A stretch of 64,000 nt of DNA from Antennarius striatus (taxonomy: Eukaryota > Chordata > Actinopteri > Lophiiformes > Antennariidae): the NCBI RefSeq assembly GCF_040054535.1, contig NC_090792.1, forward strand, positions 9,836,491 to 9,900,490, given 5' to 3'. Shown here piece by piece: positions 1 to 63,876 of the stretch. Position 1 is the first letter of the stretch, and the number at the start of each line of letters is the position of its first letter. Below the pieces are notes generated by a model that saw nothing but the letters and a program-made list of their open reading frames with translations, searched no databases and was not told the DNA's origin. The position numbers and the translations under genes were made by a program.

Positions 1-3000
1 GTCACACACTCCTTGGCCACAGGCGCGGCAGTGATGCTTAGACACCTTGGCAGTGAAGTACCGCTGGCAGCTGTGGCAAGAAAGTATGTCCTGATCGGGG
101 ACCCAGTAGGCAGGACGGGCCGCGTCTTTCACTAGACCTACACACAGGACACGCAAACACACACATGGGAGCATGTTTCGTCTTCTGTGCTTGTGTTGTT
201 GATAGTCTGGAATTGTGCTAGGTAATTCTGCCATTTCCAGTTTTTTACCTCTATAATAACAACACTGTAATAAAAGGTGTATTTTACAATATATTTATCA
301 GTTTTATTTAGAGCCTAAACCTTTAACCGTATCCATAATACATACCATCACTAACAATCTAATATTAAATCACAAGCAAATTTCATTTACAGAAACACTC
401 TTGGTAACAAAGCCTTTCCAGGTGTAACTAGCTGTAGTTATTTATATATAAAGTCGGTCCTTAGCTGGAAATCATTTGATTTTGTTGTGAGTGGAGCAGA
501 TTTTATCTTGAGGTGTTTTTATGGTGGAGACTGATTTTCAACAAGATTCTCACTTGCCAAAATCATAAAACATCGACGCTCTTTGGCAGTTAATAAAGGT
601 CTCCAACAGGCACATGTAAAGACCTCTAATACTCTGATAGACCAATGAGTTATTGTATGTATTAACCAAAGTTTTGGGGTTTCCAAAATGCGATCAGAAT
701 ATGTAAAAAACAAGAACCTGAATGTGGTGTGCAAATGCCACAATGACTTAGATTACCTGTACAGAAATGTCATATTGGCGCTACAAAAACAAACAATGGA
801 GGAAAGTTCATTCTACACGTTACTACAGATAGTGTGGAAGTGACTCATGAAGTAATCCAGAGCATTCAAGCAGCCGGACTCAAAGAAACGTCCAGGAACG
901 GAGATTTTACAACAAAACCATGAAACCAACAGGACAGGTTTCGTATGTCATGTTTGCATTACGATATGTTCAGCATTCAGTGAAAGGATCTCTCAATATT
1001 GAAACACTGCTACTGAAAGTTCAGTTTTTTATTTTGTGAAATTCATAAATGTAATCAAACGTGAGTTCATCAATAATAAATAATGAGAATTAACAACGCC
1101 TGTTTGGATTTTGACTATTTTTACAACATTACTCATTATATGGATCAGCTGTTAGGTTGATCTGTGACACTGGATTGAGAAATAGTGTTTGAGCAGAGTT
1201 TTCAGTAATTTGACAGGTTCCACTACAGCTAGATCATTACAATATTTTATATTTTCTGCATGACATCTTAGAGAATTCACACTAGGAACTACTAGGTTAT
1301 GTTACACCTCTCCCACTGGAGGGTACTGAGTATTTTCACCCACATTTACTAGGTCATTTAATCTCCTTATACAATGATACTCCTTAGGTTAGGCAATGAG
1401 TAACACTCACCAAGTGGGATGTCAATAGCAGTGACCACGACACCTAAGGTATTGGTCACTGCCTCTCCAACCTTCCTGGCGAGGTTTCCACCTTCTTCCT
1501 CTTCAAGCTCTGCCTCAACCAGCTCTGTATAAAGAAAATATTTTTGTTCCAACTGGGCTCAATCTAATCTTAAATGGCTGCTTGGCACGCTCACAGTAAC
1601 AGGCGATATTAGTCAGAGTGTGTACCTGCATATAAGGCTCTCTGTTCGAAGCAGGTGTCACAAACTCTGACAGGGGCAAGACCCCAGCCTCTCTCTGGGA
1701 CGGGGACTGCTTTAGAGGAACAGCCGTCACAGAAACCCTCCCCACAGGCACGGCAGTGATGTTTGGTGTCGTTGTCCTGGAAGACTGTGTGACACTTCTG
1801 GCAAATCTATTAAAAGACAAAAATAATAGCAACAGATATTGTTACTGACCAGCAGCTGGTGGGAAAGGGCTCAATGTACCTCTACACAAGTTTTATCTTG
1901 TGACCTACAAATACAAGGTTGTGTAATAGCCGCAGAACACCACACCGTAAACATCCCTCTGGACACTGAAGTGTTGACTTGGCTGTGGCCGGCTAGCAGT
2001 ACAGGGTAGGGCCGTGTGTCTCACTCACCAAGATGAGGGAGTTGGGTTTCCAGTAGGCTGGGGCGATCTGATCTGTCAGCCAGGAGGTGACAGCCTTAGC
2101 TGGCTTGACGCTGAGCTCTGACATAGACTGGGCCACCAGGTTGACTCCATCCAGAAGACGCTGCGCTGCATTGCTATTGTCCTTTAAAAATCCATTTGAC
2201 TACAACAAAGAAGCATGTCATTATCTACATTAGCAGATAATTGGATACCTTTTGTCATTATTATAGTTACTGTAAAATTACAGATATTTTAGGACATAGA
2301 ATACACGGCAGATATAAATTGTTTGTCCACAATTTTCAGATGGCCAGTTCTCTTACCCCAGGCCACACATGCTGGATCTCAGTGCGAACAACTGTATCCA
2401 CAGGGTCCTGGTTCCCATACCAGTACTGGCGGCTTCGATAAATCACTCCACAATTTGGACATTCAATAACATACCTGAAGATACAGTAGACAAATGTTTA
2501 GCTCACTAGATAGGTTTATATCTGAGGTATTACTCAGAGAATTTGGTTAAAAGTTGTTCTAGGACAGTCTGGAACAGACTGGAAAGGTAACATTAGCCTA
2601 TTTCAAACAGGCCGCAGTTCGTCCAGCTGTAACTCACCCAGACCAGGCGTACTTAGCAAGGCCCATCCATGGAGAGTCTGAGGAAGCTGAGGTCTTAGGG
2701 ACAACAATCACTTCCTTTCCCCCTTCATAGCAAGCCTGAAGCAGCAGACAAAAACATTACTGTATCTTCACACTCATCAGTAATGAAATAAGGTCAATGG
2801 TATCACCAGAAAGCTCAGTTCCAACTCAGGTGAGACATTGTGTTTACCTTGCAGGTGTAAATGCGATTATCATACTGGGCAGAATAACGACAACGATGCT
2901 TTGCCTCATGGTGAACTCCTTCTCCCAAGTGGTTCATGCTGTTCTTGCAGCCAGATCTGTGATAGACGATGCACATCAGAATGTTTAATACCCGCAGGAA

Positions 3001-5308
3001 AGAGTTGAAAAATTTTCTAGAAGGCAGAGGGATAACTCACCCACAACTGAGGCACAGACTGGAGCAGGTAAAGTACTCATCAGGAAAGAAGCAGCTGTGG
3101 GCCAGAAGCTCACCTGTGATTTTCCCATTAAAGCGTTCACTCAACGCCTGCAGGAAAGCAGTCGAAAATATTTAAGACTCCGATTAATCAAAGTATTGCA
3201 CCAAAGCCGTTTTGTTGACACAATCCTACCTGTAAGGCCTTGAAGATCACCACAGGGGTACGAGGGGATCGGGTGGCATTGTTATCCAGGAGCTGCTCAA
3301 GTTTGTTCTGCAGGCCACAGAAGTCGGTCGGAGGGGTGAGAGTTTGCGTGCCCCAGTACTGAACAGAGCTGAAGGCCTCGGGAAAACGAGAAAGCTTCTT
3401 AAACCGCTCCAACAACAGGCGATCTACTGACTCTGACTTATCTAACAACAGGCACAGATGAGGAGAGTTACCACAGTGTAATAACAATCAGAGATTAAAA
3501 CAGTTCCATTTGATAGTCTGCCCCCTTTTGAAAGTGTTTTTCTCATAAGTTCTAATTATTTTTCATATGATTAGACTTTGAAAAGCAAGCTGTAGATCCT
3601 TGAATGATTGCTGTACTGCAATAGTTTCCTGAAGGAGTGCAAAGTTCATAATGAAGCTCATATTTGAAATACCAACAGTGACAGAAATCTGCTAGTGGTA
3701 AAAGATGGTGTGATGTTCAAGTCTTTGCAAGTTGACAGAAAAGGAATTGGTGGCAGTAGATGCTTTACAGAAAACACATTTACAGAAAACACAATACAGA
3801 AATTCAATTTTCAAGTGGTATTTGGAGAGTAATAGAAAGTATGAGTTGCATGCAGACACTTTCTGGAACTGTCAGGTGTGAAAACATAAATATGTTCCTT
3901 TTTTTTTTTTTTTACACATTACACACTCTCAAAACATTTCACACAGCTGGAATTTTTTTTTTGAAAACAAAAAAAGAAACACTGAAGGCTAGTATTTACA
4001 AAACCTGTTTTTATCTTCAGATTCTTCACCCGTTACTCACTTTAAAGTCAGTGCAGACCTTCATTCATGGAAGTGTTTGCATTAAATTTCACTTCAAGCT
4101 TGGACTTGTCTTATGAACCTGTCACACACAAACTAATTACACTCTACAGTACAAGTGCTGAAATATTTTACCTGCTCCAAGCAATTTTGTGTGGACAGTT
4201 TCATGGAAGATGACCACCGCAGGGCCCAAGGAAGACAGTGGGACATCCAGGCCACAGCGAGTTGTTGTCGCCTTCAGCTCCTTGGTGAAATGCTTGAGGT
4301 AAGCATCAGAGGCATCACCAAGGAATTTGAAAAGATCATCGTGGAGACGGTCAGCGTGGGTACGGTAAATGATGAGATCAGAGATGGCGAGCACCTTGAG
4401 CAAGAGACGGATTCTCTGGCCCTGTTTGGAACTGTTCCCAAGCAGCCCCTCTGTGTCGATGACCACGACTTTATGGATGGGGTCAAACGCAGCCCACACT
4501 CCTACTGTGCAGGACTCTTGTGTAGGAGAGGTCTTGAAAACTTCTCTGCCCATGAAGAATGTGTGGTTCAGGGTATGAGATTTGCCCTCTCCTGTGTTGC
4601 CAAAGATGGACACCACCTTCAGTAGCTGGTCTGGGTGGGAGTTCAGGCGCTTCACAAATGAAGTTTCATCTTTTATCTTAAAGACACAAGTCACAAAGTG
4701 TTATTTATGCAACAAAATACATGGTCCCAGCAACAAAGTTCAACTTTTATGTATTGTGATTTCTTTTCTTTTGAAAGACAAACATCACTTTTGCTCACCT
4801 GTATTTCCTCGTTCTCATCGACCAGAAGGAAACTGGAGACTTTCTCCAGAAGTTTTAGTCTCTGAGATTTGATCTCATCGGCTATTTCAACAGTGGGTGG
4901 TACAGATGTCTGGACGGCGCTAACCACCACAGGTTTAGTTGGTGGAGAGTAAGCAGTGAGCTGGTGCTTCTTCTTATTGCCTCCACTGTGAGTCCGTTTC
5001 TGACAATCCTGGCACAAGTTGATTTTGCAGTTCTGGCAGCGGACCACGGATCTATGGCGTTTGCTATTATCTCCATTTCCTCCTTTGCAGTTGTCACAGT
5101 ACGGGATGTGGCCTGGGACTATCGGAACCCTCTCATGGCTCTTCAGACGCTCCTGGTTGTGGAGCTCCAGCTCACAGCGAACACACTGCAAGCTCTTGCA
5201 TTCATCACACTCAAATGCTGCCTCCTCAGAACCACCACAGGCATAACTCTCCTGGCATATTAGACTAGTATTGACTCCCTTTTCTAAGGATGAGCCATGT
5301 CCACTCAT
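1..5308 (-). CDS. zfyve1: zfyve1 (DFCP1), double-FYVE protein, 3' end outside window
   Basis: Eleven coding exons join in phase: 4799-5308, 4172-4676, 3230-3441, 3041-3147, 2848-2956, 2638-2735, 2357-2474, 2029-2199, 1626-1806, 1411-1524 and 1-137 (continuing past the left edge). They give 754 codons; the human protein has about 777, so roughly the last 25-30 residues are missing. In order I see a Cys-rich B-box-like N-terminus (about residues 20-115), a P-loop GNTGEGKS at 196-203 with a DTEG Walker-B-like motif near 244, a second Cys/His-rich region (about 430-530), FYVE finger 1 (about 604-668, KHHCRACG and RVC) and the start of FYVE finger 2 (about 717 on, KHHCRACG). In the known family the FYVE pair binds PI3P, the protein marks ER omegasomes during autophagy and sits on lipid droplets, and the P-loop domain hydrolyses nucleotide. 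The start is the ATG at 5306-5308, followed by MSGHGSS, similar to the human start. A noncoding first exon probably lies upstream. Confidence 0.95.
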
Positions 5309-5807
5309 CGTTTCTTACAATACAAAATACAAAAATAGTGCTTATTGACAATAGCACCAGCAATTTGCAATAGCAGTCAAAAATGTGCCACATGCAGCAA
5401 TAATGAATGACTAATGAATGACTAATATTCAAACAAACAGGGCTGCTGACGTAAGAACTGACCAATGTTCCAATCGATCAAATAAATTATCGCAGCATGA
5501 ATTCTAAACACTTACCACGGTTTTACTAATAAAGCTAATCAACAAAGAGATAACGGAGCATAAATAAACATCCGTCTCCTTGAGTAACACTTGATATATT
5601 GTTGTTTTTTTTACCACAAACAGTTAGCTTGTTCGTGTATTAGAGTTAGCACTTAGCTGCAACGTTACAGAATATGTATTAAACTTGAGCGAATAAAATA
5701 AAGATGATAGACAAACGTGTATTTCGGTCGAGACAACGAACAAGATGAATGTGCAAATGTTGATGCTAACAAGAAGCTAGCTGATAAAGTGACTCTCAAA
5801 TACTCAC

Positions 5808-5950
5808 AGGAAAATTCGTTGGATAAAAATCAACAGTAGGCAGTTTGTTGCTGTTTAAATTCGACTTTTTACAACAACAAAACACTAGTAGCCAGCGAGC
5901 CTCAGCAGAATATATCCGTCCGAACAAACATCAAGCCTCCAGTCTGTCAA
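5808..5950 (-). other. zfyve1: Probable noncoding first exon of zfyve1
   Basis: On the minus strand a strong donor (GTGAGTA, at 5801-5807) ends a stretch with no coding potential. A matching AG acceptor lies at 5314-5315, five bases before the zfyve1 ATG, so a 5'UTR intron of about 490 bp is likely. The upstream edge near 5950 is a guess, based on where the sequence becomes CpG-richer. Confidence 0.5.
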
Positions 5951-6209
5951 CAGAGCTGTGACAACATATCAACAAAAACAACAGCCAGTCGATGTAACCG
6001 CTCGGATATCCGCGGACTGGTTTGCTTTACGTCGGGAGGGAATTCCGCGCAGTTCCGTTATTAAACTATCTCAAAGTATTTCTGTGCCTGAATTGAACCG
6101 AGCAGTGTCATTGTTTTGTTCTTCAGTCTCTAGCTACGGTATTTTGTTGCCAGATCAGATCAGCTGATCTGATTATTTTCAGTCACAGGGTCAGAGGAGG
6201 GTATGGCAC

Positions 6210-6229
6210 TGCATGATGGGAAATGTAGT
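6210..6229 (-). promoter_or_regulatory. ZNF143/STAF-type (SBS) promoter motif
   Basis: Read on the minus strand this is ACTACATTTCCCATCATGCA, close to the ZNF143/STAF binding consensus (ACTACAATTCCCAGCATGC). It lies about 260 bp upstream of the proposed zfyve1 first exon, inside CpG-containing DNA (5990-6260). This motif is typical of housekeeping and bidirectional vertebrate promoters. I see no plus-strand gene starting here. Confidence 0.6.
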
Positions 6230-6594
6230 TCGACAAGACGGTCGCGCGAGTCATCAGAACCGTCTTTTCTTGATTTTCTGCTGCGTTCGCAAAATCTTCT
6301 GTTCTTTTGCGACCACTTCAAAGTATTTTAATGTTAACACAATTATTGGAAAAATATGGCAACATTTACTGTATTTTATTTGCTAATATTCCACCTATTT
6401 CACCACACAAGATAAAGAAAAAGTTATATTTAATGCAATTTGAATAATGGTTTCTACTATATTGAGTCAAAGGGAATAAATTTAACTTTAGCGTTATTAC
6501 TTATTATAATAATTATATTATCTAACTGAAATATACTACTTGTGTAACTATACTTTAAATTTGATTACTGAAACAAATTAATTTTTTTGAAGGT

Positions 6595-6878
6595 TTTGGA
6601 GGTTTTTAGAGGTTTTGGAGATAAAGTCAGAGAGGCCAGACTGAGATGGTTTGGACATGTCCAGAGGAGAGATAGTGAATATATTGGTAGAAGGATTCTG
6701 AGTTTTGAATTGCCAGGCAGGAGGCCTTAGAGGAAGACCAAAGAGGAGGTTTATGGATGTAATTAAGGAGGACATGAAGGTGTGAGAGAAGAGGATTCAA
6801 AGGACAGGGTTAGTTGGAGGCAATTGATTAGCTGTGGCGACCCCTGAAGGGAAAAGCTGAAAGGAAAAGAAGAAGATT
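6595..6878 (+). mobile_element. Decayed 3' tail of a non-LTR retrotransposon (RTE/L1-like pol)
   Basis: From 6613 the plus strand reads a peptide with RLRWFGHVQRRDSEYIGRR, then after a one-base slip near 6727 PRGRPKRRFMDVIKEDMK. This is the C-terminal signature of a common animal non-LTR reverse transcriptase, usually followed by a CGACCCC...AAGAAGAAG tail; here 6836-6876 has GGCGACCCCTGAAGGG then an A/G-rich end. In-frame stops and the frameshift show it is dead. Only the 3' end is present, as expected for 5'-truncated LINE insertion. The exact family is uncertain. Confidence 0.75.
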
Positions 6879-6971
6879 GTACATTTTTAATGTATATCTT
6901 CCTCTATGCAAATTTCTTCTTAATTTTATTCATCTTCCAAATGTTATTCTTTTTAGCTTTATTAGTCTTCT

Positions 6972-7075
<104 letters not shown>

Positions 7076-7998
7076 GCAGCAATATTTGTTTTTGTTTTTT
7101 CAAAATCAAACTAGTTGTTGATGTCACACCACATTTAGCAGATTAAGTTATTCTCTTTAACATTTGCATATAGTTACGTACGATACCACAAATTTACAGA
7201 TTACATGAGGATCATAACCATGCAGACCTGTTCAAGGATACTTTGCAGATAATGGATTTTTCTTTTATGTTTAAATACACCTCTAATATATAAAATCATA
7301 AAATAAAAGATAAGGAAGGTACAAAATTGTAATAGAGCTTCTTAGCAAATTTATTTTAGTGTTATTATCTACCTTTAGAGTCAAACCTTGGTCAAACTTT
7401 TGGTTAAACCTTGGTAACTTGTTTCGTAAATAAAAACACACCTCTGTTCATTAGTTTAAGAGGATTTGTGTTTTTAAAAGCAATTGTTGGAACCTTACTC
7501 TGCCATCCAATCAGCTTTCAGAGAGAATGTGGATTTAAACAGCTTTTGTCTTGTAAACTAGTAAAACTTCAAGGAGTCAGTGGGGGGACCATTTGTTTCA
7601 AATGACACTTTGTGTTTTCCCTCCATTTCTTCACTGACAATATGCTTCACTGTAAAGAGACTGTATGTTTCTCTCTTTTTTTTTACATTTATAAATTAAA
7701 GTTCTGACTCAGAGAAAATACAACATCGAATAATGAAATACATCTTATATTGAAGGCAGTTCATAGAGACACATGAAATCACGAACAACAAATTAGAAGA
7801 AGAAAAGAAGGTGAAGATAAAAATATCAGAATGTAGTGTTCAAAAAGCAGCACATTTTTGGTTTTAGATTCACATTCTTATAACACAGAAGTTAATGCAA
7901 CTTTTTAATAATTTAAAATGTTTCAAAAGTGAAATTGGCAGTCCACAAAACAAACAAACTGCAATTTGAGTACTTCCAATCCATTCATTAAATCCGTA

Positions 7999-8817
7999 TC
8001 AGATCATCCTGAAAATTTTCCGCCATCCAAAGTTAAAAAAAATCTTCATGCGTTTAGCAAGGCCAAGTTTTTTGGGGGTTGGGCCAGTGTTTTTATGCTT
8101 GATGGCAGCAAATATAGCTTGGTCAAACACATCTTTGAGGTTGTGTTGTGTGAGAGCTGAACACTCCACATAATCATGGGCGCTGATCCTGCGTGCCAGC
8201 ATTTTGGCCTGGCTGAAGGCCACTGGTTTGGTGCACCTCTGGTTCAGGTGAATGAGTATGTCCATACTGTGGCGAAGATCTGACTGAGTACCAACCAGAA
8301 TGATGGGAGAGTTGGGGTTACCAGCACGCATCTGTGGGATCCATTTGGTGGTGATGCTGTCAAAGGAGACAGGGTTGACCAGACTGAAGCAGAGGATGAA
8401 GACGTCCACATGGGCATAGCAGAGAGATCGGAGATGGCCAAACACCTGCTGTCAGTGGAAAAAAATTATATGAAATGAGTGGGGAAAGTATTGATTACGT
8501 ATATATTACAGTATAGTGGGGAACATTTACCTGTCCTGCAGTGTCTATCAGTTTGATACGAGTTGGAATTCCATTCACATGAACAAAACCTTGACAAAAA
8601 GTGAAAACAAAAAAATCATTTCTGAGTCATTCAGCAATAAGTCTTTAAAGCAGAGCTATCACTCACCAGTGAAGACATCAAACGCAGTCTGTTTGTACTC
8701 CCTGTTGTATCCATTGAAGATGTAGCTGATGATCATGCTTGTCTTTCCTACAGCTCCATCACCTACCAGCATGCAGCTCAGCTCTTCCTTCCTCCTCCCT
8801 TGGGAAACTTGTTCCAT
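7999..8817 (-). CDS. RHOU/RHOV-type (Wrch/Chp) Rho GTPase, divergent
   Basis: Three exons join in phase: 8667-8817, 8531-8589 and 7999-8448, giving 219 codons. G1 is GDGAVGKTS (19-27), G3 is DTAGQ (66-70), G4 is GTQSD and G5 is ECSAL. GTQSDLR and ECSALTQ-NLK-VFD are hallmarks of RHOU/RHOV rather than Rho, Rac or Cdc42. Known members signal through PAK in cell shape and neural crest behaviour. Two things are odd. Only 18 residues precede the P-loop, where RHOU/RHOV have a longer Pro-rich extension. The tail ends in WRKIFRMI, without the CFV-type cysteine that family members palmitoylate, and without a CAAX box. The neighbourhood (dll4, chac1, exd1) favours rhov, but the divergence leaves a lineage-specific paralogue possible, so no symbol is given. 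A four-codon uORF (ATG GAG AAA TAA) lies just before the start. Confidence 0.88.
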
Positions 8818-19961: not shown

Positions 19962-21357
19962 TCAGGAAGTGGAGTGTAGTATGTAGTTTAGCATGTAGCT
20001 CCCAGCATCAGGGGTTTCTGATGTGTATTTCATCTCATCAGGCCCACGGAAAAAGTTCAGAGCAGCTGCTTCAATGGAGAAGAGGTGCTCGTCCTCTACC
20101 TCAGGACAGCAGAGCCTCATGAACTCTGCCAGCCGCAAAAGGTATTCAATATTAGCTCCATTGTTTCCCCTGCAGATGGCAATCTGGGCAGCAATATCTC
20201 TGTCTGAGGCTGGGCCGAGGTAGCTGGGGTTGTCAGAAGTAGCGATGTAGACGAGGGCCAACAGGGGAGACTTTCCATCCTTTGGAAAGAAGTTTACTGT
20301 CTTCATTCTGTAACCTCCAAGCTCGACCTCTCGTTTGTGCAGAGACTGGAGGGACGATTCGACCTGGGACTTGCTCACCTCATAGGCTACACCCCATGTG
20401 CAAGTCTAAGGGAGAACAGTAGGAGAGAAGGTGCAGCAGTTGGCATAAACAGCATAGTATAGCCGAGATACTTATTGACTATCTAAATCGCAGAAGAGTT
20501 CATTAGTAAAATGTACACATGCTTTTTGGACCTCAGTGATCATAGTCTAGTAGTTTGATGTGATACTGATGAACCTTCGCTTAAAAAACACACACCATAA
20601 AAACAGAGTTACTACCAAGTAGATACAATAAAATATGCTAAACTTGTGTCTGCCTGTTTATTATAGTACAATAGCTTAATTTTTAATGGTAGATATGATG
20701 CATAATGTTGCTACAGAATTACAAGTGAAAAATCTTACATGGTCAAAGTGCTGAATTTCAGTTTCAAGTAATGTAATGGGGGGAAAAACTCTGGCAGTAT
20801 TCTGTCAACAACCAGGGAAGTAAATAATTTCACGTATTTTTAATTTAGTTTATTTCGTCTTTGTTTAAAACACAGTTACTAGAGATTGAATCTCTTTCTA
20901 TCAGGCCACTTTGAAAAGTTAGTACTATAGTTCAAGGTCACTGGAACTTAAGTTGGAAAATAAAAGAGTTAAGTGTGTGCTGGATGTCACTTCATGCTTT
21001 AAACAAAAACACTCACCTCCGGATCGTCCACGAGTGTAACGACTCTGCCTGGCTGTGGAGAGGAAGGACACGCAGTGAGGACATGCCTACTCAGCACAAC
21101 AATAAACTCATTCAACAATTTCAGTAAAAATCAGAAAATCGGCTTATTTTGATCAATTGAGGAGCAAGATAATATGTAAAAGAGTCAAATATTACCCTTG
21201 TTTTGTTTCCTCGATGAAAATCATCTCCGTGCCAGAAGCGCCTTTTATAGCCCATAATGAAGCCGACTTTACTACTCTTATAAACAAAATCTGGTCTCCA
21301 CACTAAGGAGCCATATCCAAAAATCCACAGATTGTTATTTTCCTTTGAAACGTCCAT
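19962..21357 (-). CDS. chac1: chac1, glutathione-specific gamma-glutamylcyclotransferase
   Basis: Three exons join in phase: 21196-21357, 21017-21052 and 19962-20405, giving 213 codons (human CHAC1 222). The N-terminal WIFGYGSLVWRPDF (11-24) is the ChaC substrate-binding loop. GYKRRFWHGDDFHRG and PGRVVTLVDD follow, with CTWGVAYEV after exon 3 begins. KREVELGGY places the predicted catalytic glutamate at residue 92, equivalent to human E115. YLGPASDRDIAAQI and EYLLRLAEFMRLCCPE-EDEHL match the rest of the fold. The known reaction splits cytosolic glutathione into 5-oxoproline and Cys-Gly; CHAC1 is an ATF4-CHOP target of the unfolded-protein response and has also been reported to block Notch processing. 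Length and C-terminus favour CHAC1 over CHAC2, and it lies just downstream of dll4 as in human. No damage is seen. Confidence 0.95.
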
Positions 21358-21548
21358 GACTTGTGTTGTTTATGTCAAATGTCTATCCCTCGATCTTTCC
21401 TCTTTTTCTCATAGGTTATGTATTCTGTCGCAAAACGCTAAAAACTGAAACTATTTCTTAATTATTAACACGTTCTTCTAATAGTAGATAACGAGTTTGT
21501 TAAAAACAACCAAGGCAAAAACAAATCCCTGCCCCTCTTCCGTGCAAA

Positions 21549-23936: not shown

Positions 23937-26900
23937 CTGAAAAAAAAATATCTATGACTAACATTATTAAATGTAATATATGAATTACAGAAAGTATAAG
24001 AAATAAAAGATAACTTACCTCAGTTGCAATGATGCATTCTTGTTTTTCCTCTGTGATTACATAGACAGACTGGTACGCCAAGTCTCTGGAGGAACACACT
24101 GTTGATATTCTACACTCTGGTCTGTTACTGTGGAGTGAAAATACAAAATGTCAGTTGTTGAGCACAAAAATTGTCAATGATCTGACATTTTGATCTAGCG
24201 ATCCCATGTTGTTTCCCATAAACATAATACCAACATGGATGATTCAACGCTTTCAAATGCTCCTACCTGTACATTCTAGGTAGATTCTTTTTTTCTTCTA
24301 TTGTCTTTTCACAGTTTTCATCTTTGTCCAAAAGGGACGGTTCGTCCTTGTACCCCGTGGAGGTTTTATAGTCCAAGTGGTAGTGGTTGATGTGTTTGTG
24401 ATTTGACTTTTCCCTGGGACAATCCACCTCCAAATCAATCTTTTTATTGTTGTTTTTAAGTTCTAGAGTAGAGATGAGGTTCTCTTTCTGAAAGTCACTC
24501 TTAGAGAGGTTGTTCATGGTGTCTGAATCTTGCTCCTTGTTCCGTTGTCTCCTAACATGACGCAGCACTACTGCTACCATGCAGAGAAGCACCAGAGAAA
24601 CCACTAGGCCAACGCCCAAGCTGATAGCTGCCAAGTTTAACTTGTCCTTGGACTCCCAGCCATTGTTAGGGCTGGGAGTGTTGGGTGAAGGCACATTGTT
24701 GAACTGGCACTGGTGACCGCTGTATTGGTCAGAGCAGACGCAGGAAGGACGGCCTTTTGCTCCAATGGTGCAGGTCCCACCATTCAGGCAGGGTTGAGAG
24801 GCACAGCGGTCTGTCGGCTTGTCGCAGTGGCGGCCCGTGTGTCCAGGAGGGCAGCTGCAGGTGTAGTCGTTGATACGATCTATGCAGGTGGACCCGTTTG
24901 CACATGGGTTCCTTGCGCACTCATTGATGTTGATCTCACAGCGCAGACCTGTGAAGCCTGAGCGACAGCTGCACTGTCGAAGGTTACCATGAATCAAACA
25001 ATGCCCACCTGTGCAAAGGAACAGAGGATTATATGTAGAAGCCTTCCTTAAGTTTCTCATTTTGTTGTATGAAAAGAAAGAGTCAGAGTTCATGATGTGT
25101 TACCATTGGTGCATTGCAGCGAGGTACATTTATCCACCTTCTTCTCACAGTTAAGTCCAGTGTAGCCTACTGGACACTCGCATATGTAAGCATGGCCATT
25201 GTCCCTCTCTCTGCACTTGCCACCATGAAAGCAGGGTGTATCTGCACAGGTCAGCATCCTGTGTTCACAGTGTGTCCCTTCAAACCCCGGTGGGCACACA
25301 CACCGATAGCCATTCTCAGAGTCCTGCAGGAGAAAACATATAAAGCTTATCAAAAAAAGATCGCTGTCAGATGATTTGTGCTATCGTATCCTGTCCACGG
25401 CTGCCTCAATGAACCCCCATTATCCACAGTTTGAATCTATTTACGGTCCACACTCTGTGAACTGGGTCATCTACTGACTTGACAATCGATAGCATCCTCC
25501 TGGACAAGCAGATAGACCGAGGCAAAAACAAAAACAGGAAAGCCTTTGTTGCGGGAAAGGAGAGAGAGAGACTTCCGGACTCACCAAGCAGTGGCCTCCA
25601 TTGCGACAGGGCTGGTTGTCACACTGTTTGACCTCCAAGTCACAATTAACCCCGGTGAAACCTGGCAGACAGGTGCAAGTATAGCTGCCCTGGCCTGTGT
25701 TCATGCATGTAGCCCCATTTTTGCAGGGTTTGTGGTGGGTGCAGTAATTCAGGTCTGCAAACAAACATGTGGTAACATTATGTCATCCGTAATTCCCACA
25801 TTGCATTCAGGTTAGAGACAGAGGCAGGTACACACCTTGGTCACAAAATATGCCTCCCCAGCCTTCCTTGCAGGCACACTGCCACGGTTCTTCACAAGTA
25901 CCATGTTTACATGATGGATGGAGTTTACATACATCACAAAAGAGTCCTTGCCAACCCTTTCTGCATCTGTTCACACATTCAACAGGAAAACATGACTGTT
26001 AGGTCACACTGAAACACTTTAATCCAGCATGTTGTGCTTAAAAAAAAATCAAATCAAACAAAAGACAACACATTTCTGTGGTTGTTTTATGTAAACCCTT
26101 GTGTTTTGGTAGTTTGCACATCTCATGCAGCCAAACAACAAATAGAAAAAATGAAATCAGCCATAAAAGTGAATGGATACTCACATGCACTCTCCAGGTA
26201 GGGTGCAGTTTCCATTCCTTTCGTTGCATCCCTCAAGGCAGATTGCTGTAAAAAGAAATAAAAGGACAAAAAAAAACAACTCAGACTTTTTAATGTTTTT
26301 AATCCCACATTTACAGCACGCTGATGATAACACTTGCATCACATTTAAATCTGTTAATAGATTATTTCTATGAATTTTGCGCGCTTTTCTGTGTGTGACG
26401 TTCAATTCGTGTGGGTTTTTTTTTTTTTTTTCTAGCGCTGAGCGGCTGGTCGCTGAGCAGCAGATGCTTGTTCTCAAAAAAAAAAAGCAGGACAGCTGCC
26501 CCATTGTTTCTAGTGGGCAGTTCGAGCCCCACTTGCAGCTGCTGCCCTTCACCGCCTCAACAATGGGGTCCGCAATTTAGTGGCGCGTGGCGGGCGATAA
26601 TGCTGCGATTAACCCCGGCGCGCGCGCTGCTGGGCGACCACCGGATTGGATTAAAGCCGCACGCGCTCGGAGAGAAAGTGCTCTAATTGGACCCCGCCCC
26701 CCGCCCCCCCCGCCCCCCCCCCGTCTTCAAATTTCACCGCAGCAGCTCCTCTTTCTGTGTTTGGCTCCATCAAAACACCTTGATCATGTAACAGGAATAT
26801 TCAAACGCAAAATAATAACTTGTTTATTAAGATAATTTTTTCAAGTTTTTTTTTTTTCCACAAGAAAAAAAAACCCCCATAAAACACATATTTATTTATT

Positions 26901-28837
26901 ATTTCCCATGTCTTTAAGATGCACAATCTTTATTTTTTTTTTAAACTTGTATGTTTTGTAAATTAGGTCAAGGCCTTTTCAACTCGCCAATAACGCGCCT
27001 CAGTGACCTTTAACCACAAACAGAGGAAAATGTCCATATGGTGTCTGTACTCTTGCTTACGTTCTTGGCAGTATTCTCCCTTCCATCCCGGTAGACAGGC
27101 TATTTGCCCGTCAGGCTTGCAGGTGAAGTGGCCAAAAAGGTCATCTCTCGGAGTGCATATTTTGGAACAAGTGTCCCCGTAGTAATTGTCATTGCAGATG
27201 AACCGGTACGAGTACCTTAGCTCCGTCTGCATCCCGCTCTGGACATCCTGGGACCACTCATGCCCTATTCCCAACTGTCTTTGGATGGCAAAAGAACTAA
27301 TCAAGAAATCAGGGTTGGTGGTGTCTGTGGAGAACAGAATATCGAACATAAATGAATTACTTCCAAACATTAATATTTAACAGATTTATGATGTAGTTGA
27401 TAAATGTAAAATAATAATCCATTAGTGATTTTATTGATGTGTATAAAGTTCCTATTCCTTTCACATGTGACCATTATTTGTCCGTTATGAAAGACCGAAC
27501 AAAAAAGGTGTAAAATCCAGGAAGGGCTGTCAGGGGAATTTTGGCACGGCTTTGTGTTCTCACTTAAGATTGTGCACTTTCCCATGCCTGCCAAAAATAA
27601 AACAAGGGAAGTGCAATTGTGTTGGATAGATTTGATTGTAAGGAATTGTCGTGTGACTCATAAGGCATCCTAACAAACATGGATTAAAATCCCACATACA
27701 TCTGCCAGCACGTCGAGGCAGTTATTGATAAAAATTTATGACAGGCACTCAATCGTCTGCATTAAAGTTGGAGTGTCTCCCTCTAGCGGCCAAGAAGCAT
27801 TTTGCGTCTCCTCACCTCCAGGTGGGTCCGCGGAAGGAGAATACCGGGCTTCAATGACCAGTGAGAAAGCACCCTGTGGGGACAAGGAAGGAAACGTCAA
27901 GAAACATATAAATTAGATGCAGATTAATGTTTGTTTGTTTTTTGTTTTAGTGATACACAGGTCTGGAACGAGGTTCCGACATTCGAAAAAACATGGGGGG
28001 GGTTTTTTGATTGGAAAAAAATCACAAGCTGAAAATACGAGAATGACTGCGCTCATTATTTCATTTGACATTTGAATTCAGTAAATCACTTATCTGACAT
28101 ACAATTTCTGGCGTGGTTGTAACATTAAAACACACTTATCTGACATTGGAAATGTAGATCGTGATGCAATATTTTGTTTTCTGATGATTTGATGTAGGAA
28201 GCATAATGTTAATTTTGGGGTTTAACAGTTATGTTTTTCTTTTCTTTTTTAAAAAAAAAAATTTTGCTCTGACAAGAAGGTTTTTTTTGTTGCTTTTTTT
28301 TTCTTTCTTTGTCTTAAAGTCAAAAAGAAAATTGTTTGAAAGCTTCATGAAACCCTGTCAGATGTTTCCTGAAAACATTTGCATGGTTTCTGCAGAAAGG
28401 CGTGTCTGTGCGGTGGGACAGGTGCTCTTACCGGCCAGGTGAAGTTGAGCGGCAAATGCAGCCGGGCGTCTTGCTGGATGCTGAACGAGTCGGTGCCCAG
28501 AACAGGTGTGGTGGCTGTGCCAAATATACAGTCTCCATGAGAAACCACGGTCTGGAAATTCTTCAAACAAACCCTGAAATAAGTCCTGCAGCCAGTCATG
28601 CTGCAACTAAGTCCGTTTGCCAGCAAACCCTTAGTATTCTGAAAGTGATGGAGATCTAGCTCGAATACACCTGTTCCAAGAACCTAAAACGATACAAAAA
28701 GTGAGCACAAGCAAAACTAATACAACATTTTTTTTTCTTCCTAAAAACAAATGTATTTCATTGAGACTAAAAAATGCTACCTGAGAAAATATTGTCATAA
28801 CTATTACGAAGATCGAGGTGAACCAAACGGCCATCAT
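23931..28837 (-). CDS. dll4: dll4, Delta-like 4 Notch ligand
   Basis: Eleven coding exons join in phase: 28781-28837, 28432-28683, 27816-27873, 27061-27324, 26185-26245, 25836-25966, 25585-25754, 25104-25323, 24267-25008, 24019-24121 and 23931-23936. They give 687 codons (human DLL4 685). Order: signal peptide (1 to about 23), MNNL domain ([29 protein letters not shown]), DSL domain (about 166-208, [19 protein letters not shown]), eight EGF-like repeats (about 212-506) including a calcium-binding type ([15 protein letters not shown]), one membrane segment (about 529-553), a basic stop-transfer, and a cytoplasmic tail with [14 protein letters not shown] and the C-terminal ATEV PDZ ligand. DLL4 presents to Notch receptors on neighbouring cells and restrains endothelial tip-cell fate. 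The start could be either of two tandem ATGs (28832-28837). EGF spacing and the [15 protein letters not shown] motif favour DLL4 over DLL1 or DLC. Confidence 0.97.
26246..27060 (-). promoter_or_regulatory. dll4: dll4 intron 4 with CpG-rich island and G-run tract
   Basis: This 815-bp intron holds a CpG-dense patch (about 26380-26680, with GGCGCGCGCGCTG and similar) and a C-homopolymer tract at 26692-26722 that is four G-runs on the transcribed-sense (minus) strand. The rest of the intron is T/A-rich. The composition is unlike any other intron here. An internal promoter or enhancer is possible but unproven. Confidence 0.45.
27325..27815 (-). promoter_or_regulatory. dll4: dll4 intron 3, candidate endothelial enhancer
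   Basis: The third intron of mammalian DLL4 contains a well-studied arterial enhancer with ETS, RBPJ and FOX/SOX sites. In the same intron here I see CAGGAAG (27518-27524), CATGGGAAAG on the minus strand (27578-27587, one mismatch from an RBPJ site), an ATAAAACA FOX-like site (about 27597-27604) and GGGAAGTG (27606-27613) within about 100 bp. Orthology is by position only. Confidence 0.4.
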
Positions 28838-51200: not shown

Positions 51201-51517
51201 ATTTGGAGCCGGAACACCCGCAGCCATCGCTGCGACTGTCTGCAACGAAACAACTGGAGCATGGAGTTCATGATGATTCAAAAACTTTAAACAAATGGTC
51301 TCCACAAAGCAAAGAGTCCTTTGACATAAAACAATCAGGTTTTAAAAAACAACAACAAAGCAATGTAAAATAGACGATAAAAATCTACCTTACCATCCGA
51401 CAGAACCAGCGTTTTGTTGGGATTGATTCTTTGAAGTACGCCCACGTAAGTAGAATTCTTCAGAATTAACTTGATGCGCTTCCCCTTAAAGACATTCATA
51501 AACTCAAACTCTTCCAT
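48208..51517 (-). CDS. exd1: exd1, Exonuclease-3'-5'-domain piRNA factor
   Basis: Eleven exons join in phase: 51394-51517, 51174-51239, 51035-51068, 50872-50948, 50672-50733, 50466-50552, 50248-50352, 50086-50166, 49847-49990, 49562-49744 and 48208-48774. They give 509 codons (human EXD1 514). The N-terminus (KRIKLILKNSTYVGVLQRINPNKTLVL) is Sm/LSm-like, with KLFFGREILNV following. The DEDD-exonuclease-like domain spans about 120-300: GRLCWLQ, KVYLFDIVLLG, IIHDCRAIAGCLNSQFGI, NVFDTQVADVM, ETGGFLPN, then the helical RP-P-LL---L-LLPLRL region. The last exon encodes a low-complexity tail (LPTQLRKLEQMRSDRQKWASD...QGLLARF) ending at 48208. In mouse, EXD1 is a catalytically dead RNA adaptor partnering TDRD12 in nuclear piRNA biogenesis; motif I is degenerate here too. 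The start ATG matches the human MED/MEE start. Confidence 0.95.
48893..48915. repeat. (AAT)n short microsatellite
   Basis: About seven AAT units within the last exd1 intron. Confidence 0.9.
50738..50758. repeat. exd1: 21-base A run at an exd1 acceptor
   Basis: On the sense strand this is a 21-T tract ending directly in ACAG before exd1 exon 5, so it serves as the polypyrimidine tract of that acceptor. Confidence 0.9.
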
Positions 51518-51653
51518 AACTAACTGAAGTTATGTCTGACTTTCACCAAGTAACTAATAACTAAGACGCTGTTAGTTTGCAGGTAAAGTGTGCCTCTGCT
51601 AAGCTAACCCTCCAGCTTGTCAGCAACGCAAACTTGTTAGCGCGCGTCGGTGT

Positions 51654-54607: not shown

Positions 54608-57600
54608 ATGCTCCCAGTGAGGAGGACACAGATGGACAGCCTCGTTCAGCCGCTCGTCGCGCAATACCTCGCTATGGGATGTCAATCAAAAGAAAACCGA
54701 AGTGAAAGTGTAACACCGGAGGAAAAAGGCAAAGAAAATGCGTAAGTCATGTCACCTTTTCGTTGCTTTGACCAAAAAAAAAATTTTGCGCATTTGAAAA
54801 AATCAACAGTTGGTTGTATCAGTGATCTAAGGTGTGTTTCTGACAGCTGATGCCGGCTGAGCACGATCCGCACCACCTTAGAATAACACATTTAACATGT
54901 TTTTATTGATACTTTGCCCACCCACCCCCACTTCATTGGAAAACTGCGCTGCTGCACCAGTTGCATGTTTTGTATGAATTCCTTTCTTGTGTATTGGTGG
55001 CTCAACAGTTTAAAGTGGATGTCCGCAATCAACCGGTATTTTCCCAAGTTAAAGGAAGGAACTGAGAACAATGAGTGGTAATCCTTAAAGCGGGTTTGTT
55101 AAAGTCAAACAATGGCTCTACATTTTTTTTGGTGACAATTTCACAGGCTTGTCTGTGCGTTAACAATCAGCCACGGGCTCCTAAGATGGGGTACACATTC
55201 ACACAGTGAATATCCTGATTTATTTGAAAATAAAGAAACACATTTTGGTGTCAGTAAGCCCTTCCCTCACTCTTCTTGTGTTGGGTCTTCTCAAGGAGAG
55301 TGTCTCCAGGATGCAACTCTAGACCCAGAGTTTCTCCTCCGGGGCGTCCTCACAGGTTTCACAAACCCAGCCCGGCCCAAACCAACCCGAGTAAAGCCAA
55401 TATGTCTTTGGGACACCTCACCAAGGGAGCAAGCTGGGAGGAACTCATCCAGGCCTGCCTGCAGTGTTTTGGTAAGTCTTTGTTGACACGGGTGCTGGGT
55501 TTGTTAAGGTCTAAATATCAGAGAACTTTGCAATCAGTGTTTATGGAAACATTGTGGGGATTTTTTTTTAAGTCCACCTCATGGTTTTCTGCTTTATTTT
55601 TTGAGAAACGGTGAAACGAGAAGCCCCAGATGGTGGAAAAACTCATTCTTATCACTCCCTGTTGTAGTTTCCCATGAGTCCTCGTGTTTTTTCATCTCTT
55701 CTGCTCCAGCAAGTATGGGCAGGCATGTATGTGAAAGGTAGCGGAGTGGTTGAGTTTAAATACTGAAATGTATTTTTGTGATGGAGCTGCATTTATTACT
55801 ATTATTATTGTTGTTGGAGTGGCATTTGCCAGTCTGACTTTGTTGAAAATATGCATTGAAAATATTGAAAATAATATATTGCCATTTGGTATTATAATTT
55901 TTGTGTGTGTCGGCAGTCACAGGCTTCCCTGTATTTGTTGAATACCTGATAGATTTTTAACAATTTATGATTTTCAAATGAATCTTTTAGAAATCAAAAG
56001 CTAAAAGCAGTTATTGAGTAGACTGTAGTTGGATCAATCAAGCAAAGATCATCGGCCTCATTGAGTTGTGTGGAGTGCTCTCAGAGTTATGGTGATTGCC
56101 TCTCTGAAGAGACAAGCGTTCAAATTGCCGTTGCCTGGTTACAAAAATGGAGCAAGAGCAATGGAGAGGTGTTACAATGGGATGCACATAAAATGACATC
56201 CCATCACTACATGTGTTTGTGGAGAGGTAGAACTGGACAGTGACGACAGCATGATGCTCATTTCAGATAAATGAAGGAAATAGAATCAGTCCCTCAAAAA
56301 GCAAGAGAACTTCATAGTAAAATTCTGAACTCTGGACGTTGGAAAACTCATCTCCGTGTCATCATACAAAATCTGAGATCCAAACACATTGTCTCACTGA
56401 GCATAATGTGTTGTGACTGGGGAGTTCCTTGAACAGCTTCTCTCGATAAAATGGAACACGACGCTGTTCCTCTTGGCCCACATCACAAACGAACCCCCAC
56501 GGTCCGTGGATCCTTCCACCTTTTCAAATGTGAGAGAGCGCGTAAGAGCTATTTGAAGGATTACCTGATGGCAGCTTCAAACCTGGCTGAGCGTAAAGGT
56601 CAGCTCCTCTAGCCGTGTCCTCAGATGCTGACCAGCCTTTGAAATGCTGCAGATCAATTACCGTTGACATCATCACGGTCTTTAGACCACACTGTTCTGG
56701 GTAGAATGCATCTAAACCGGCCAAGTGTTGACATAACTCATAATGATTTCACTTATTAAAATGTATTGTTTTTCCTGTAGAGATCCTCATTTTTTTTATT
56801 ATTCTAAAGTTTGTGAGACATGTCACAATATGAACAGAGTTGAAAGCTCCTATGCAGCAGCTAACTACTGTATTGTTATTTCTCTATTATTATTGATTAT
56901 GTTGAAGTATATACAGGGATGGATTTTTCACAGTATTGATACAATAGAGCTGTCATTGTGTTAATTTGTAATCCTTCCGCTTGACACATTCTTGATGTTT
57001 AGTTTAGATTTTAATTTGTGGATGAATTTAATTTATTGATTTCTAACTACGTTGATCACTGAATCACTACATCAAGAAATGTAAAATTTTCATTTTTGTT
57101 TCAATTCCCTATCATTAAGTTTAGTAATGTAACTGTCATGCATTGCTTTAATTTAACCATGAGCCAATAATTAGATGACTATTTCAGCTGTATATCCATT
57201 AATTTAAGCTTGGTCTTTCAACAAGTTTCGTACTCAGTATACTATATATAGAATTAAAATTAAAAAAATTAAACTAAAATTAAACATTCTACTATCATGA
57301 GGTTTGGTAACTGGAAAAATGCTCTCTGGGGTGTAAGTGGTTGGGAAAATGGCCTCTAAGATGTAAAGATAGCCACACGTGACGTCGGCATCTGACTTTG
57401 GATTCCTTTAAAACAAACAGGCCATATGTTCTGAAACACTGTGTCAAAACAAGGAAAAGCGACACGCACTGCTTGGAATGAGTAAGGAATGACAGATAAC
57501 CTCAAAGTGGGTCAGGTGTGCCGGCCCTCAGCAGAGGTTATCAGCACACAGTATTGTGCAGCTCCAGCGTAATGGGCGGCAACTTTTCCAAAATTTCCAG

Positions 57601-60600: not shown

Positions 60601-61698
60601 TCAGTTCTTGCCAGCTGTTGAATGATCACCAACCAAGTTTGTATTTTCTCCCGTGTGTATTTTTGTCTGTGCTTATCAACAGTTATAACCATAAAACATT
60701 ATACCGTATAATGAATTCACTTCTTAAAATGTAAATCTCCACTTCTTTTGAACTGGATAACAAACTGCTTACAGTGAAAGTTTCCCTGGGAAAGTGTAAA
60801 CAGAGACTTTTGGTCAGATTCTTGTAAATCACTTTATTTTATATCTCTGGGAATTGAACCCACATGAAGGCATGAAGACAAACCACACAGAAATTGCCAG
60901 TTTTCAAGCTGATGACCTCATTTTCTTTTGTAGGCTACAAAGATAGATTGAGACTAAATAACAGATTGACTTTCATAATGACACAAAGTTAATTTTAGTA
61001 TGTTTTAAAGCTGATTTTTCAAATCAAATAAACTTACTCTAGTCAGTAGCAATGGGATAAACCTGAATGTGTGAATGTTGTCTTCTAGACTCCAATGGCT
61101 GCGTCTGTGGGAGCAGCCACCTGTTGAACATCAGCCTCACCATGCACCGTCTCTTGATCTCCTCCACTGATCTGCTGGACAAAATCATCACTCTATATCC
61201 TTCAGCTCTCACAAAACACTGAAGTTATTCAAACAGTGCATTTGCCACATTTTGAGCACCAAATGTAAGATGGGAGATCAGCAGCTCTGCTGTGTGCTGC
61301 TTTCCTTTGGTTGTCAACAGCAACAGGCAATCAGGCTTGTGCTTTGCTTACAATGCAGCCTGTAGCTGTCGGTGTAAAATATGAAAGGCGAGTAGTTTGT
61401 TATTTACTGCTAATGTTAGTGGCTGTAGACCATGTATTATATCTGTGTGATTGTAAATTTCCTGTGCTTTGGGAATTATACCCCTTGAATCCAAGAAAAG
61501 GGAGTCTACTACCAGAATGCATTAACATCCTGTTATTTCCACCCTTTCACACCTAAAAAAACATGTTTTATTGTAGCTCCTTGGATGGATCGCTTCTAAT
61601 CTGGGCCTCTATGCAGGAAACAGCAGTGACGTCACAAAGCCTCACACACAGCCTGACAAGCAGAGGTGTCAGTTGTTAATTGCCTCTGTGTGTGTGTG

Positions 61699-61797
<99 letters not shown>

Positions 61798-61903
61798 ATA
61801 TATACTTTAAAACATACTATATATATATATACATATAGACATACAGTATATACAGTATATGTACAGTATATATTTACATATATATATTTACACACATGCA
61901 CAC

Positions 61904-61995
<92 letters not shown>

Positions 61996-63876
61996 TGACC
62001 CTCCATTGCTTAAAGAGGCCCCTGCTCACACGAACCTACGTCAGAGCATGCAACACGAATGCCCCTCTGCTATTTTTAACCCTCTCATTCTGAGCTGAAG
62101 ACCCAAAAGGATCCATCATATAAACTCAGTGTGTGGGTTAGGATCAGGGAAGAGCCGCAGGGGCCATTGACAGCCCTCATCACAGTCTGGCCTTGGGATT
62201 GCGTGGGCAGTTCGTCTGCTCCCATGACGCAATTAGCCTTTTATATGTGCATCATTTCAAGCCGATTTCTGCCAATCGAGAGCTATAGTGTCAGTCTGTT
62301 TATGGACCGTGATCCTTAATGGGGCCCTAATTTTAGGGTCAACATATGAATTGTAGAGCTGTTAAAATTTTATGAATAATTGCTTTCAAGTCTGCCAGTA
62401 AACAATGCACATTGACAAACAGTTGTTCCACAGTATATGATGCATTCACTGTGTTTTTGTACATTTTCATATTCACTAACTTCTTTATGCCAGAATGATT
62501 CAGCGGTGCTCATCAGAGTTTTGCTTGGTGCAGTCACCGCCTCCCACACTACCAAATGCCACTTCTGTTCGCCTTTTTGTTTAGTTGCTGCAGTTTTTAT
62601 TAATGAGCTGTTTTTAGGAAGGAAACTCTGCAGTCGAATCCTCCATATGTTCAATATTTACACAAAACATACCTGTGCTTAACAAAGTCAAAGATCAGCA
62701 GATTTTTGCTCGAAGTTGTTTTTATCTAAACAAAGTGCTGCTAAGATGGAGACAACCTGACTGCTCCCACAGCTTCGGAATTCAACCAGTCAACGTCGCT
62801 TCCTTAACTGAAGTATTTACATTTAAAATAGCTCTGGACAATGAGCAGCAATCAGAGTGCCAGAGGATATGCTACTTCATTAGGTGAGTAACACACCAAC
62901 ACTTTTTAAGAGTCTACCTGCATATCCTCTGTCCGCTTCACCGAGTCTTCTCCGAAATCCAGGTATTGGATCCAGGAGTTCTGGTTGATGTTCCGGTTGC
63001 ATCACAGCTTGTCCGACAGTCTGGAGCAGTTTCGAGAGCTGATCAGAGATCAAGGACAAGAGCATCTTTGCTCTCTCCTAGAGACCAAATGGATGTAAGT
63101 GTTAATCTGTGACCAGCTGGCAGCTGATATTAGGCCTGAACAAGTTAGTTGTTGGTTGCAATCATGAATACAGGCTCTGAACTGTGAGCATAAATTTGGG
63201 GCTGTGGATGTAATGTCAAAGTTGGACAATGAAGTTAAATTTCTCACTGTATGATAACACATTTCCTGGTGAATGTGTTGTGTTGCAAATGGAATGTGAG
63301 GAAATGTCCATCACAGTTTCCAGCAGCCCAAGGTGACACATTCAAATGTCTTATATTGTCTTGACCAACAGCCCGAGATTGAAGTTGATCAATTTACTGT
63401 CACAGATTCTATAAAAAACTACAAATATTGAAACTTTTGAATCACGTGTGAAGCATATTATCAATATAATTTACCTGAATTAAGACAAAACAATAAAAAT
63501 GCCAATCAATGTAAAGTCAATGAACTAATCATTTCATCATCACTGAAATTGGCCTCATAAATAACTTTCAATATAAAGTTTTTGTGTCATTTTGCACCTG
63601 TGTTTATTTAGAAGCCCTATTCACACCTGAAGCTGCAACTTTTCTTATCTTTGGAGTCTTGCTGTGACTGAAGTTTTGCTCATTGTTAATGTGCTTACGT
63701 TATATTCCATGGTACGTTCTAGAAATGAGCGTGACTGGTCGTGGAAGGCCAGCCAAAAGATCAAAGCTAACAGCAGTAAGAAGAGGAAGGTGTCGCTTCT
63801 TTTTGATCACCTGGAGCCCATTGAGCTAGCTGAACATCTCACCTTCCTGGAATTCAAGTCGTTCTGCAGGATTTCA
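54608..63876 (+). CDS. rasgrp1: rasgrp1, Ras guanyl-releasing protein 1, 5' part only
   Basis: Six exons join in phase: 54608-54741, 55296-55471, 61089-61194, 62821-62883, 62963-63094 and 63723-63876, giving 255 codons before the window ends (human RASGRP1 is about 797). [20 protein letters not shown] (residues 81-100), [31 protein letters not shown] and [14 protein letters not shown] form the REM domain. [22 protein letters not shown] and [11 protein letters not shown] begin the RasGEF (CDC25) domain. EF hands, the C1 domain and the tail lie outside. RASGRP1 loads GTP on Ras at membranes in response to diacylglycerol and calcium, mainly in lymphocytes. Motifs match RASGRP1 better than RASGRP2-4. 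The N-terminal 80 residues rest on phase and absence of stops; the alternative start is the ATG at 55402-55404. Exons 3 and 4 are separated by an AT-AC intron. Confidence 0.92.
58425..58469. repeat. Near-perfect short inverted repeat
   Basis: Two 21-nt arms (58425-58445 and 58449-58469) match at 20 of 21 positions around a CAC loop. The left arm begins AACACCTTGAGA and the right arm ends TCTCAAGGTGTT. Confidence 0.9.
59151..59410. mobile_element. MITE with terminal inverted repeats and internal duplication
   Basis: The left end (TACAGCATTTTCTGCACTAT) and the reverse complement of the right end (TGCAGTATTTTCCGTACTAT) match closely. Inside, a roughly 80-bp unit with CACTGGATTATAAGGCGCAC-type and CACCTTCAATGAATGGCATA-type cores is present twice or more. 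This 'TATAAGGCGCAC' element is common in teleost genomes; a non-autonomous DNA transposon, possibly hAT-like, is likely. No coding capacity. Confidence 0.75.
59490..59525. repeat. Palindrome with 12-bp arms
   Basis: ACATGGATGATC (59490-59501) and GATCATCCATGT (59514-59525) are perfect reverse complements around a 12-nt T-rich loop. Confidence 0.9.
61195..62820 (+). other. rasgrp1: AT-AC U12-type intron of rasgrp1
   Basis: The 5' end is ATATCCTT directly after ...ATC ACT CT. The 3' end is AC at 62819-62820, preceded by a perfect U12 branch-site consensus TTCCTTAAC at 62800-62808, with the branch adenosine about 12-13 nt from the junction. Joining CT to A TTT AAA restores ITLFKIAL, matching human ITLYKDAL. 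No GT donor near 61190 gives a sensible frame. Confidence 0.92.
61692..61991. repeat. Compound TA/TG/CA microsatellite inside the U12 intron
   Basis: Long TA array (about 61698-61776), TG run, mixed TATA/ACAGTATA segment, then about 43 CA units (61906-61991). Strong cruciform and Z-DNA potential. Confidence 0.97.

Follow-up and report, generated by a model that had tools for sequence, protein, structure and literature searches.

A predicted U12-type AT-AC intron in the REM-domain part of rasgrp1 of Antennarius striatus, with counterparts in two RASGRP paralogs

The stretch of Antennarius striatus DNA analysed here (referred to below as the window; 64,000 nucleotides, positions 9836491-9900490 of contig C17) carries five exons of rasgrp1 on its forward strand, and traces of several further genes on the reverse strand. 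The latter comprise two domains within 1612-8451, a FYVE finger at 1612-1806 and a GBP-like GTPase domain at 4140-4700, which together look like zfyve1; a Ras-family frame (8002-8451) that is presumably rhov; a ChaC domain in two frames (19965-20405 and 21124-21369), which we take to be chac1; EGF and DSL domains (24266-25099 and 26966-27376) that look like dll4; and a frame at 51338-51529 that holds MEEFEFMNVFKGKRIKLILKNSTYVGVLQRINPNKTLVLSDG and gave no Pfam match, but has to our eyes the look of the Sm-like start of exd1. The company of chac1 and dll4 with rasgrp1 would seem to resemble the gene content of human 15q14-15.

The features of rasgrp1 that concern us are collected in Table 1. When the five exons are joined, the frame is open over 175 codons, and the resulting protein aligns over residues 2-175 with the RASGRP1 chain of PDB 4l9m (which we take to be the human protein) without a gap, the junction 61194|62821 included (E 8.6e-68). 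Matches to RASGRP2 (E 4.9e-32) and RASGRP4 (E 2.2e-27) follow far behind, and the identification as rasgrp1 in an earlier reading of the sequence alone is thereby upheld, in a comparison made against chains of solved structures, among the matches to which RASGRP3 is absent. Three weak matches to LAS1L chains (E 7e-4 to 9e-4) were taken as chance. In Pfam, the REM domain (RasGEF_N) scores 30.1 bits when the 63-nt exon is included and 14.6 bits when it is left out, the cut-off being 28.3 bits; a glycosyl hydrolase match came up below threshold in the same search. The gapless alignment and the gain in domain score both bear out the further claim of the sequence-only reading that splicing 61194|62821 restores the reading frame together with the REM motif.

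Table 1 Positions in the window of rasgrp1 exons and of the signals of the proposed minor intron
Feature	Position	Strand	Details
rasgrp1 coding exon	55402..55471	+	from the ATG used here; GTAAGT donor; true start and upstream border provisional
rasgrp1 exon, REM domain	61089..61194	+	106 nt; last bases ..CACTCT adjoin the U12 5' splice site
Predicted U12-type AT-AC intron	61195..62820	+	1,626 nt; phase 2; codon split CT|A
U12 5' splice site ATATCCTT	61195..61202	+	intron +1 to +8
U12 branch site TTCCTTAAC	62800..62808	+	branch A 13 nt from last intron base
3' splice site, terminal AC	62819..62820	+
rasgrp1 exon (..QRICYFI..)	62821..62883	+	63 nt; U12 acceptor; ordinary GTGAGT donor
rasgrp1 exon (YWIQEFW..)	62963..63094	+	AG acceptor; GTAAGT donor
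rasgrp1 exon	63723..63876	+	AG acceptor; GTAAGC donor

Between the second and third of these exons lie a 5' splice site reading ATATCCTT, a TCCTTAAC-like branch site close to the 3' end, and a terminal AC that joins exons of compatible frame, as in the published consensus for U12-type AT-AC introns (ATATCCTT, TCCTTAAC, AC) given in the available text of PMC2831892. Both ends and the branch site had already been picked out from the letters alone, and every coordinate proved right. It must be remembered that ATATCCTT by itself is weak evidence: the copy at 61195 is the single exact one on both strands of the 64-kb window, but shuffled sequences average 2.44 copies per window. For TTCCTTAAC, also present as a single copy in the window, the shuffle mean is 0.62. 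The strength of the case rests less on the rarity of either motif than on the fact that the two are placed at exon edges set independently by protein homology, an arrangement far from chance. Measured against TTCCTTRAY, the branch match is 9/9 in this intron and 6, 6 and 7 of 9 in the gene's three other complete introns, all of which are GT-AG (donors GTAAGT, GTGAGT and GTAAGT). Three other RTATCCTT sites in the window (+28854, -10274 and -7241) were considered as starts of U12 introns and rejected, the best branch match within 4 kb downstream of them being 8/9, with none at 9/9. Our main reading, to which we would give a probability of about 0.98, is that 61195-62820 represents a phase 2 U12-type AT-AC intron in the REM-domain part of rasgrp1, the removal of which would join 61194|62821.

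The RASGRP paralogs of the same genome (548 Mb in 42 contigs) allow this reading to be set beside other members of the family. A REM-domain search returned ten matches at E <=10, five in the window gene, two on C23, and one each on C6, C24 and C1, the last two being weak (E 1.62 and 6.78 respectively) and such that rasgrp3 may have been missed among them; a CDC25 query gave nine matches at E <=0.01, divided equally among C17, C6 and C23. The copy on C23 is clearly RASGRP2-like (106.5 bits against 42.9), whereas that on C6 scores 71.9 bits with RASGRP4 and 68.3 bits with RASGRP2, and because these two values lie so near each other it is called here only rasgrp4-like. In the C6 paralog the exon ends ..AQKLLTL and is followed by an AT-AC intron of 199 nt, CT|ATATCCTCA...TCCTTGAC...CAC, after which the next exon is 63 nt long, exactly as in the window. 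In the C23 paralog the exon ends ..AKKLVL, and what follows is a U12-type intron of the GT-AG subtype with a length of 271 nt, AA|GTATCCTTC...ACCTTGAC...TAG, the next exon having 57 nt. All three introns lie at the corresponding place in the frame and in phase 2; the distance from branch A to intron end is 13 nt in the window, 13 nt on C6 and 12 nt on C23, and the branch site matches TTCCTTRAY at 9/9, 8/9 and 8/9 positions respectively. The window's intron is much the longest of the three, and a TA/TG and CA microsatellite at 61700-61995 contributes to its excess. Comparison with the same intron in other RASGRP genes had been suggested as a check, and within this genome it comes out in favour of the proposal, a U12-type intron of matching place and phase being found on both C6 and C23. 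Given that place and phase are common to three genes, the simplest reading is that the minor intron would predate the split of rasgrp1 from at least two RASGRP paralogs, making it older, on this within-genome comparison, than the divergence of at least three RASGRP genes. On the same simplest reading one lineage would have switched subtype, from AT-AC to GT-AG or the reverse, a change that is known from other genes (PMC2831892, in its available part).

As regards the minor snRNAs, the evidence gathered here concerns U12 only. The genome carries, on C16, a U12 snRNA gene scoring 123.1 bits (cut-off 53), in which positions 18-25, GTAAGGAA, are the exact complement of TTCCTTAAC at 62800-62808 with one A bulged, TTCCTT(A)AC. 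The branch sites of the paralogs pair more poorly than the window's, at 7/8 positions if a G is bulged and 6/8 if an A is bulged (not counting a G-U pair). It is well established that in the minor spliceosome U11 and then U6atac recognise the 5' splice site, while U12 recognises the branch site. On that scheme U11, followed by U6atac, would pair with ATATCCTT, U12 would pair with TTCCTTAAC so that the bulged A becomes the branch nucleotide, and the exons would then be joined at 61194|62821.

Were the intron to be retained, the frame would run from the ATG at 55402 into a TGA at 61220, that is, after 67 residues. The sequence-only reading had made expression of the REM domain dependent on the minor spliceosome; such dependence is still expected, but its scope was drawn too narrowly, since a stop at this point would affect the whole protein rather than that domain only. 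If minor splicing failed, the protein would thus presumably be lost. The read-through residues LYPSALTKH (61195-61222) were considered as a possible coding extension, which the TGA at 61220 rules out. They faintly resemble LYKDALAKN at the same place in RASGRP1, a likeness that is probably due to chance, since ATATCC itself gives the Y.

An additional possibility is that this same U12-type intron is regulated, occasional retention leading to the premature stop after 67 residues and so to a lower dosage of Rasgrp1. There is some encouragement for this in that the affected genes of patients with ZRSR2 mutations include RASGRP1, RASGRP2 and RASGRP4 (available text of the review PMC9405558), and in that loss of Rnpc3 leads to retention of minor introns, that of mouse Rasgrp2 included (PMC12332006, likewise in part). 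However, at 1,626 nt the intron exceeds both the mean (1,077) and the median (451) reported for introns retained in zebrafish zrsr2 mutants in the accessible portion of PMC9501576, the main text of which, to the same extent, does not name rasgrp. On balance such regulation seems to us unlikely, and in any case it supplements the main reading of a U12-type intron without replacing it. More doubtful still is the broader idea that a REM-domain minor intron, conserved in position in at least three RASGRP genes but differing in subtype (AT-AC or GT-AG) in the rasgrp2-like copy, constitutes a shared control point, through which minor-spliceosome activity would set Ras activation by way of all RASGRP proteins simultaneously.

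There remain two alternatives to a minor intron as such. The first, an ordinary GT-AG intron with borders nearby, was explored using 32 donor-acceptor pairs initially and then 60 (four exon GT combined with 15 AG from 62700 to 62866). The exon at 61089-61194 holds just these four GT, the last of them at 61149, and no GT starts within 61150-61223; any GT beyond 61223 was discarded as a donor, lying past the stop at 61220. It is true that 19 of the 60 pairs leave the frame open, but all 19 of them drop at least 16 REM residues that are kept in RASGRP1, as any GT-AG model of this exon must, given the position of its last GT; for instance, the pair GT61149-AG62813 substitutes LFT for the 16 residues. 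Taken together with the U12 place and phase common to both paralogs, this makes such an intron extremely improbable. Removal of an AT-AC intron by the major (U2) spliceosome is just as improbable, since, although introns of such a kind exist (PMC2831892 and PMC6717393, in the parts available), the sodium channel gene examples described in the former have G at position +5, where this intron has C, and a 9/9 U12 branch site stands here 13 nt from the intron end.

In practical terms, the loss of REM residues just described serves as a warning against gene models of the rasgrp1 locus that admit only GT-AG introns. That the exons concerned are mis-annotated in automatic builds would be a guess: in annotated genomes AT-AC introns make up 22% of U12-type introns for Danio and 12% each for Tetraodon and Takifugu (Table 2 of PMC7367187, the article being available in part), so that annotation does capture introns of this sort.

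The presence of minor introns in this family is not in itself new. According to the accessible text of a review (PMC6865273) they occur in 100% of RASGRP genes, and a table in a lupus study (PMC12637451, in part) includes RASGRP4 in a set of genes that have a U12 intron and show a splicing event. A published coordinate for a mammalian RASGRP1 minor intron was not found in the literature search, nor were there matches for RASGRP1 with U12 AT-AC introns or with the zebrafish minor spliceosome; PMC7367187, PMC9501576 and PMC6717393 make no mention of RASGRP in their main text, as far as it is available. More can be learned from the primer table of PMC12332006 (the source again being available in part), which lists primers for mouse RasGrp2_U12_intron. 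Translated, the complement of the reverse primer gives KTCHLV, residues of RASGRP2 that in the alignment stand opposite RICYFI of the window's 63-nt exon. The forward primer contains CCCTTAAC..TTTAC, that is, CCCTTAAC followed by CCTCCTTTAC, which to our reading is what one would expect where an AT-AC minor intron ends. Judging from these primers and from the paralogs, the intron in the window probably occupies the same place as that of mammalian RASGRP1.

In the light of this literature, the intron is a genuine U12-type one and adds a fish example to a set of introns already on record, in a family for which the pattern is known. What is new here is the finding of paralog introns of the U12 type that agree with this one in place and phase, and of a U12 snRNA in the same genome complementary to the branch site. 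As an instance of a Ras activator gene with a minor intron, the result is clean and can be checked; general knowledge of minor introns is left unchanged by it. Compared with U12-type AT-AC introns in general, the 5' splice site, branch site and terminal AC all agree with the consensus in the available text of PMC2831892, and in the features tested there is no difference. Compared with the minor introns of the human and mouse RASGRP family, where the available part of PMC6865273 has all the genes carrying them, the window gene differs in being that of a fish; for mouse Rasgrp2 in particular, the primers in the accessible part of PMC12332006 indicate an exon border matching that of the window.
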